Origin: Olavius algarvensis Gamma 3 endosymbiont
Lineage (GTDB): Bacteria; Pseudomonadota; Gammaproteobacteria; GCA-001735895
Assembly: GCA_001735895.1 (NCBI GenBank)
Contig: DS021199.1
Coordinates: forward strand, 651,168 to 689,413
Reading direction: 5' to 3'
DNA length: 38,246 nt
In this document: positions 11,338 to 12,408 of the stretch, in pieces
Layout: each line of letters begins with the position of its first letter
Numbering within the stretch: position 1 is the first letter of the stretch
Notes under the pieces: generated by a model
Seen by the model: only the letters and a program-made list of their open reading frames with translations
The model's database searches: none
What the model was told of the DNA's origin: nothing
Position numbers and translations under genes: made by a program

Positions 11338-12408
11338 ATGGCAATCAGGCAGCTAAGCCTGACAGATTTCAGAAATCTCAAGAGTACGGCGCTTGATTTC
11401 GACCGCCGTTACAATTTCATCAGCGGCGATAATGGGTCAGGTAAAACGAGTCTGCTTGAAGCGATATTCGTACTTTGCCAGGCGCAGTCATTTAGAACCC
11501 ACCAACTCAAGCAATGCATTAACCACGATAAATCCGAGTTTTTGCTGTTTGGACGATTTCAAGGCTACAAGGCGGGCTTGGCGCGTTACCGAGATAAGCT
11601 CGAGATCCGGATCGACGGAAAGGCAATTAAACGCCGTTCGGAACTGGTAAAAAAAGCGCCGATCAAGATAGTTAATGCCGAAAGCTTCGTTTTGGTGGAT
11701 GGGGCGCCCGCTAACAGAAGGTCGTTTCTCGATTGGTGCATGTTTCACGTGGAACCTGACTATGCGGAATTCTGGCATCAATTTCAACACGCGCTCAAGC
11801 AACGCAATCATATTCTCAAATCCAAACGAGATCTCGATCTTCTGGATTACTGGGATCGGCACTTGCTCGAACCCTCGCTCGAATTGAACCGCATGCGGCA
11901 GCGTTATAGTGACCGTTTGCAGGCTACTGTTCGTGACCAGTTTACTGAAATTCTAAACGGCGTGCCGTTGGCAATCGAGTATCTACAGGGTTGGCCCCGG
12001 GATAAGACGTTGGCACAGAGTCTCGAGGATCGGCGAGACAGGGATATTCGCGCCGGATTCACCGGAGTAGGTATTCATCGTGATGACCTGGAGTTGACAA
12101 CCCAGGGGAGGAAAGTGGGTGAAGTTTTATCGCGCGGGCAGAGTAAGCGGGTGTGCTTAGTTTTGCTGATGGCGGTGTTGCAACTGGTTAACAACACGAA
12201 CTCTGACCCGGTAATTCTATTAATCGACGATTTGCATTCGGAGCTCGATCGAGACGCTCAAGAATTGGTCTATCGGCAACTGATACAAATGGATTTACAG
12301 CTGTTTATCAGCAACATCGAACTGGCGGTGCCGAGCGCGCTGGAAGCAAAAGAATTTAAAATGTTCCACGTGGAACATGGTATAATCAAGCCTCGAAATT
12401 TCAGCTAG
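11338..12408 (+). CDS. recF: DNA repair and gap-loading protein RecF
   Basis: SMC-like ATPase that acts with RecO and RecR to load RecA at gaps. It begins [16 protein letters not shown], with Walker A at [15 protein letters not shown], the family motif [17 protein letters not shown], the ABC-type signature LSRGQSKR, and Walker [12 protein letters not shown]. At 356 residues it is full length. The C-terminal tail repeats MFHVE because both copies are encoded by parS-like DNA; the first copy coincides with a conserved RecF motif, the second lies in the variable tail. The gene ends 8 bp before gyrB. Confidence 0.97.
11741..11756. promoter_or_regulatory. parS-like site (imperfect) within recF
   Basis: TGTTTCACGTGGAACC matches the 16-bp chromosomal parS pattern around the CACGTG core, with asymmetry at position 5 and the last base. 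It encodes part of a conserved RecF motif (MFHVEP), so codon constraint could explain some of the match. Confidence 0.55.
12362..12377. promoter_or_regulatory. parS site (perfect palindrome) at the end of recF
   Basis: TGTTCCACGTGGAACA is a perfect 16-bp palindrome and matches the ParB-binding parS consensus. It sits 31 bp before the recF end and about 2.3 kb from the dnaA-dnaN gap, a typical origin-proximal location. No parA/parB pair is present nearby. Confidence 0.82.

Follow-up and report, generated by a model that had tools for sequence, protein, structure and literature searches.

The window analysed here is a stretch of 38,246 nucleotides from the Olavius algarvensis Gamma 3 endosymbiont, an uncultured gammaproteobacterium. 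Its gene order comprises mnmE, yidC and rnpA on the minus strand, followed by dnaA, dnaN, recF and gyrB on the plus strand; polA and thrB lie beyond mnmE. Two putative parS sites are located within recF, between dnaN and gyrB and 3.0-3.7 kb from the start of the dnaA reading frame (Table 1).

Table 1. Coordinates (window positions) of the putative parS sites and of the genes around them
Feature	Position	Strand	Evidence or content	Role
dnaA	8694..10010	+	TIGR00362, E 6.6e-175	marker of the origin region
dnaN	10220..11320	+	TIGR00663, E 1.1e-111	upstream border of the putative centromere slot
recF	11338..12408	+	TIGR00611, E 1.3e-97	host gene of both sites
parS site 1 (putative)	11741..11756	.	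TGTTTCACGTGGAACC; encodes M-F-H-V-E-P	RecF residues 135-140
parS site 2 (putative)	12362..12377	.	TGTTCCACGTGGAACA; encodes M-F-H-V-E-H	RecF residues 342-347
gyrB	12417..14822	+	NF011501 and TIGR01059	downstream border of the putative centromere slot

An earlier note on this DNA had described a perfect 16-bp palindrome at the position of site 2. The sequence TGTTCCACGTGGAACA is indeed exact, is its own reverse complement and lies far beyond chance: three matches to the palindrome with at most three mismatches were found in the window, against 0.15 expected, and none of 100 shuffles reached three. The note had counted one site only. This site is real, but a second one, TGTTTCACGTGGAACC, had been overlooked; it shares the recF gene and the reading frame with site 2 and precedes it by 621 bp. 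Both sites are read as the codons ATG-TTY-CAC-GTG-GAA-Cxx. Compared to the 16-bp palindrome type TGTTYCACGTGRAACA, site 2 fits exactly and site 1 is off at the last base only.

In Pseudomonas aeruginosa, parS1 and parS4 are TGTTCCACGTGGAACC, parS2 and parS3 are TGTTCCACGTGGAACA, and these sites are bound by ParB in ChIP-seq, according to the accessible part of the report (PMC5098823). The 16-mer of site 2 is therefore identical to a parS2 with demonstrated binding in that species, which sustains the earlier reading as a ParB-binding site, and site 1 is one base apart from parS1.

The readable genome comprises 4.87 Mb on 22 contigs, parts of which read N. The search for the 16-mer and its variants that the earlier note had suggested found the exact copy in recF only, with no second exact copy of TGTTCCACGTGGAACA in the readable genome and no random sites far from the origin. 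A further match with two mismatches on another contig is approximately at chance level (by our own estimate 1.3 per genome, for 1,129 variants over 4.87 Mb). Of the 14-mer GTTYCACGTGRAAC, the readable genome contains two exact sites, both within recF; a third one, and with it a counterpart of parS3 or parS4, was not found there.

The location of a centromere within about 4 kb of dnaA, as proposed before, agrees with the distance of 3.7 kb between site 2 and the start of the dnaA frame. DnaA-box-like matches occur at 8514-8522, 10037-10045 and 10083-10091, among five in the window; with 1.96 expected and five reached by 4 of 100 shuffles, they point weakly to an origin. As the note had stated, parAB is absent from the window, mnmG and parAB not being among the genes identified there. 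In the congener G030, parAB does not adjoin dnaA, since about 109 kb of the same contig separate parB from the recF site, and this would explain the absence. In the window, mnmE, yidC and rnpA (4556-8188) remain beside dnaA; in G030, it is a block of mnmG, parB and atp genes that lies at the above distance from recF.

We consider sites 1 and 2 together to be the centromere (parS) on the chromosome of this endosymbiont, with a probability of roughly 0.93.

Codons of recF and sites in its absence

TIGR00611 matched over cut-off in 295 of the 369 genomes of the class. For a survey of recF codons, 120 genes of the approximately 150 best TIGR00611 matches listed were aligned, a sample in which lineages with divergent RecF or without recF are under-represented. 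Three of these genes (G374, G222, G326) were included on account of a missing or weak ParB in their genomes, and site 2 was scored in 116 genes, the tails of G193, G222, G278 and G326 being short or cut. Loci L016-L044, which were chosen by parS pattern, were excluded from the codon and site counts. RecF was readable in 148 of 150 loci, all but L031 and L038, and of 12 extra recF loci the reading leaves out G330, G293, G358 and G260.

The site cores TTYCACGTGRAA are intact at both places in 90 of the 120 genes, at one place in 19 and at none in 11. Genes with the residues FHV[EK] spell them TTYCACGTGRAA in 98 of 99 cases at site 1 and in 101 of 104 cases at site 2, whereas 6.8 and 7.0, respectively, are expected from each gene's own codon usage. 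Since relatedness inflates such counts, a recount was made with one genome per family (G036-G192, n=53): here the TTYCACGTGRAA codons are used in 45/46 and 46/46 cases, and both cores are present in 42/53 genomes. The codon before F ends in G without exception at both sites (99/99 and 104/104), and the codon after E or K always begins with C (likewise 99/99 and 104/104), so that the residue encoded there is H, Q, P or R only. The two cores of the 90 genes bearing both are spaced by 612-633 bp, always a multiple of 3.

Conserved RecF columns were defined as those with one residue in at least 80 of the 120 genes, with M, W and S left out, which gave 92 columns. Ranked by the dominance of one codon, the top six are E139, H344, V138, H137, V345 and E346 (95.5-98.9%); these are the H, V and E of both sites and nothing else, and the seventh, D297, is at 80%. 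Selection at these codons acts on bases, not on residues alone. The earlier note had placed site 2 in the variable tail of RecF. The residues right before the motif do vary, but F-H-V-E itself is conserved, and this conservation in the protein is most likely due to the DNA.

Ten genomes from four families (G117, G344, G300, G190, G385, G178, G290, G092, G228, G332) have only a weak best RecF match (E 6.6e-10 to 1.4e-5), and in these dnaN adjoins gyrB without a RecF match in between. The slot nevertheless carries exact parS sequences, two in eight genomes and one in two (L250-L253, L256-L261). Within a pair, the distance is 25-106 bp in seven genomes and 722 bp in the eighth, G228, where dnaN is cut at the contig end. 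These ten belong to 20 stretches, which were mostly chosen from parS-bearing places with preference for a lack of RecF or odd spacing; they were thus selected for having parS, not for its position, and represent recF-less genomes with parS only. In a rough tree built from partial GyrB and DnaN sequences (short pieces, 70 taxa), some nodes of which are weak, the absence of recF in these ten takes 3 changes compared to a shuffled mean of 9.5; tentatively, recF was probably lost more than once.

The other ten stretches comprise G241, a control, with recF and two exact sites, G206 with recF and one exact site, and G144, added for its broken recF and lack of a site, where recF is interrupted by internal stops. 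None of the searched genes was found in the stretches of G061, G363, G313 and G082. Four identical 14-mer parS with a period of 62 bp are located at 2499-2698 in G363 (L262), in a stretch with none of the searched origin genes. Three further genomes with a weak RecF match carry exact parS near mnmG: in G142 (L263) the mnmG match contains two and rsmG one, in G258 (L264) each of the two contains one and three more lie outside, parA and parB being close by in both genomes, and in G356 (L265) a single one is found just ahead of mnmG.

A different explanation would be that RecF needs F-H-V-E-H/P and that the palindrome is a by-product of this protein constraint. Most of the 120 RecF proteins do in fact share these residues, and the FH of site 1 is shared by RecF of E. 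coli K-12, which has FHNEP and FTVEK at the two places, with both palindromes broken. However, synonymous bases are beyond the reach of protein constraint, and yet the parS codons are nearly fixed in the survey, whereas codon fixation does not exceed 80% in any other of the conserved columns. Moreover, H, Q, P and R after E are chemically unlike and share C-first codons, the residues are different in E. coli and in several genomes without ParB, and parS occupies the slot in the ten recF-less genomes. We therefore consider protein constraint a very unlikely origin of the palindrome, and a pair of parS sites selected at the DNA level is retained as the explanation.

ParB and the fate of the sites

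The lack of a chromosomal ParB had been named in the earlier note as evidence against its proposal. Formally this lack is what we found, since profile searches of this genome with ParB_N and TIGR00180 gave 0 matches; missing sequence is the likelier cause. TIGR00180 matches were obtained in 51 of the 57 genomes of the relatives set, the misses being the present genome (G000), G005, G007, G020, G034 and G053. With family models, atpB and mnmG likewise remained without a match in G000, and atpD is present but interrupted by a run of N. In the congeners G003, G021 and G030, mnmG, parB and atpB are clustered within a few kb, in the order mnmG-rsmG-parA-parB-atpB, and the corresponding stretch of G000 reads N. 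For the G030 block, mnmG, parB, atpB and atpD were assigned by family models, and rsmG, parA and the other atp genes from sequence and position. The syntenic stretch of G000 retains atpD, one ORF of the atpH-atpB interval of G030 and genes beyond mnmG, with runs of N between them. Given the concurrent lack of mnmG and atpB and the runs of N at the syntenic place, the missing ParB is most likely missing sequence rather than a missing gene. A DNA query of G000 with the congener parAB block found nothing, which is uninformative by itself. A location of the block at a contig end was considered and rejected: the examined ends of the 22 contigs, with short contigs covered in full and many of these stretches containing long runs of N, bear no trace of it, and the syntenic place lies within a contig, with runs of N.

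A match to the ParB family is no proof of a chromosomal ParB, since the models also match in the E. coli control and other ParB-like proteins are possible. The congener ParB L006 was compared by eye in an alignment with chain 6t1f, which we take to be Caulobacter ParB, and has Arg and Gly at the parS-type positions 173 and 201. Arg173 and Gly201 mark ParB of the parS type according to an excerpt of PMC7383237. Within one mismatch, the 16-mer has no match in 9 of 30 congeners, 8 of which have ParB, but this is not evidence of absence because spellings such as TGTTTCACGTGAAACA differ by two.

Across the class, the exact 14-mer GTTYCACGTGRAAC is present in 308 of the 369 genomes. Genomes with a ParB match number 346, of which 298 have the 14-mer and 48 lack it; among the 23 without such a match, 10 have it. 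In the 120 surveyed genomes, 199 of 246 exact 14-mers are located in recF, and all exact sites are within recF in 87 of the 113 genomes that bear any.

The 23 genomes without a TIGR00180 match comprise 20 listed and three inferred ones (G352, G364, G374). Nine of the ten that carry exact sites are at most 96% complete. Eight ParB-less genomes are at least 98% complete (G067, G151, G207, G211, G286, G314, G317, G350), and seven of these have no exact site. RecF is over cut-off in four of the eight; the sites are damaged or lost in G207, G286 and G314 and intact in G350. G062, which belongs to the same genus as G207 and G314, has ParB and two intact sites, whereas the sites of its two ParB-less relatives are decayed. 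In G165 (90% complete, no ParB match), both recF sites are lost and two exact sites are found elsewhere. The E. coli family, whose palindromes are broken in the K-12 representative, is said to lack chromosomal par genes in the part of PMC3909081 at hand. G350 (L231), with 99% completeness and no ParB match, has kept both recF parS; either its ParB lies in an assembly gap or it was lost recently.

Both cores are absent in G059, G088, G103, G184, G207, G222, G226, G278, G286, G314 and G326. Among these, the ParB match is strong in G059, G088, G103, G184, G226 and G278 and weak in G222 and G326. Exact sites elsewhere number two to three each in G088, G226, G184 and G103, and none was found in G059, G278, G222 and G326; recF of G278 is cut at the contig end. 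In recF of G059 (L106), where ParB is present and an exact 14-mer is lacking, CACGTG is changed to CACATG at both sites (FHME), which breaks both palindromes alike. This twin change suggests a ParB of shifted specificity or conversion between the sites.

These data also bear on the idea that the palindrome is recognized not by ParB but by some other DNA-binding protein, such as a regulator that binds CACGTG. No ParB gene is seen in the readable G000, and ParB as the binding protein is deduced from P. aeruginosa. Nevertheless, the palindrome is identical to a site of another species, likewise in recF, that is bound by ParB in the ChIP-seq data cited above, the sites are decayed in ParB-less G207 and G314 but intact in their congener, and the congener ParB bears the parS-type residues. 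A foreign binding protein is thus extremely unlikely. Equally improbable is a relic, a real parS out of use since the lineage lost parAB: the 0 ParB matches in G000 would fit, but mnmG and atpB, which G003, G021 and G030 carry together with parB, are absent as well, the syntenic stretch reads N, and relics seem to decay, as seen in seven of the eight nearly complete ParB-less genomes.

The dnaN-gyrB slot and comparison with known systems

From their sequence, the two sites look like an ordinary, functional pair of chromosomal parS as in P. aeruginosa. By analogy to P. aeruginosa and to established ParABS biology, binding, spreading and segregation by ParB may be assumed in this organism. ParB dimers would load as CTP-dependent clamps at both recF sites and spread across the dnaA-dnaN-recF-gyrB region, and ParA would move newly copied origins apart. 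Selection on ParB binding would then fix the recF codons xxG-TTY-CAC-GTG-RAA-Cxx. As both sites lie in the recF reading frame, the RecF residues F-H-V-[E/K]-[H/Q/P/R] would be dictated at two places.

For the class as a whole, we think it likely that the slot between dnaN and gyrB is the ancestral centromere position and that selection at the DNA level has been held for so long that RecF carries both parS as fixed motifs; the motifs would be lost with ParB, and the sites would outlast recF. If this is true, RecF protein sequences could be used as a kind of fossil record for ParABS. The conserved FHVE may then tell little about the function of RecF. An in-frame centromere in a repair gene would represent a class-wide pattern in which constraint on DNA dictates protein residues. 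The recF parS may serve as a test bed for two selective demands on one sequence, and the two demands are naturally separated in those genomes that have parS in the slot but no recF.

Several observations on natural parS are relevant here. According to excerpts of PMC5450999, natural parS show changes in one distal base and a single transition, located at position 5 or 12; such variants keep their interaction with ParB, although less efficiently in Vibrio cholerae; site 1 of the window carries both kinds of change. In P. aeruginosa, the last base may be A or C, no significant binding was seen at proposed sites that have two mismatches, and a single parS is sufficient for segregation (PMC5098823, in the text available). 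Intragenic parS have been mutated without changing the protein (PMC4368675, abridged source), and a portion of PMC5815017 names recF/gyrB as a hot spot for the insertion of parS carried by transposons.

The closest known system is that of P. aeruginosa. Its nearest parS lies in recF, clockwise of oriC by about 4 kb, and its parAB is found on the opposite side at about 7 kb (PMC3909081, in part). An excerpt of PMC5521831 places parS1 and parS2 within recF and reports that surplus ParB lowers the expression of genes around parS1-4. The present genome likewise has two parS in one recF, with site 2 identical to the parS2 16-mer. In contrast to the four bound parS near oriC of P. aeruginosa, there are two exact 14-mers in the readable genome, and parB of the congener G030 is about 109 kb from its recF site, whereas parAB of P. 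aeruginosa is about 7 kb from oriC.

Noc-binding sites (NBS) resemble parS in being palindromic sites of a ParB paralogue. What sets them apart from parS are two variable positions, 1 and 6, which are read by Gln173 and Arg201, as far as an excerpt of PMC7383237 extends. The congener ParB L006 has Arg and Gly at these places, in contrast to the Gln173/Arg201 of the NBS reader.

In Bacillus subtilis and others, intragenic parS are found in coding genes near the origin, and the distribution of parS was reportedly surveyed in a study of 2007. The sites described here are similar in being centromere-type sequences inside a coding gene near the origin; unlike in the Bacillus subtilis type, they occupy one gene in one frame with class-wide fixation of codons. 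Among the literature consulted, parS in recF are reported for P. aeruginosa only (PMC3909081, PMC5521831, both in part). Class-wide fixation of recF-parS codons or parS in a recF-less slot did not appear in the literature searched, which consisted largely of titles and the beginnings of abstracts. Within these searches, the layout of two parS in recF is already known from P. aeruginosa, and the fixation of its codons throughout the class and the sites in the recF-less slot appear to be new.
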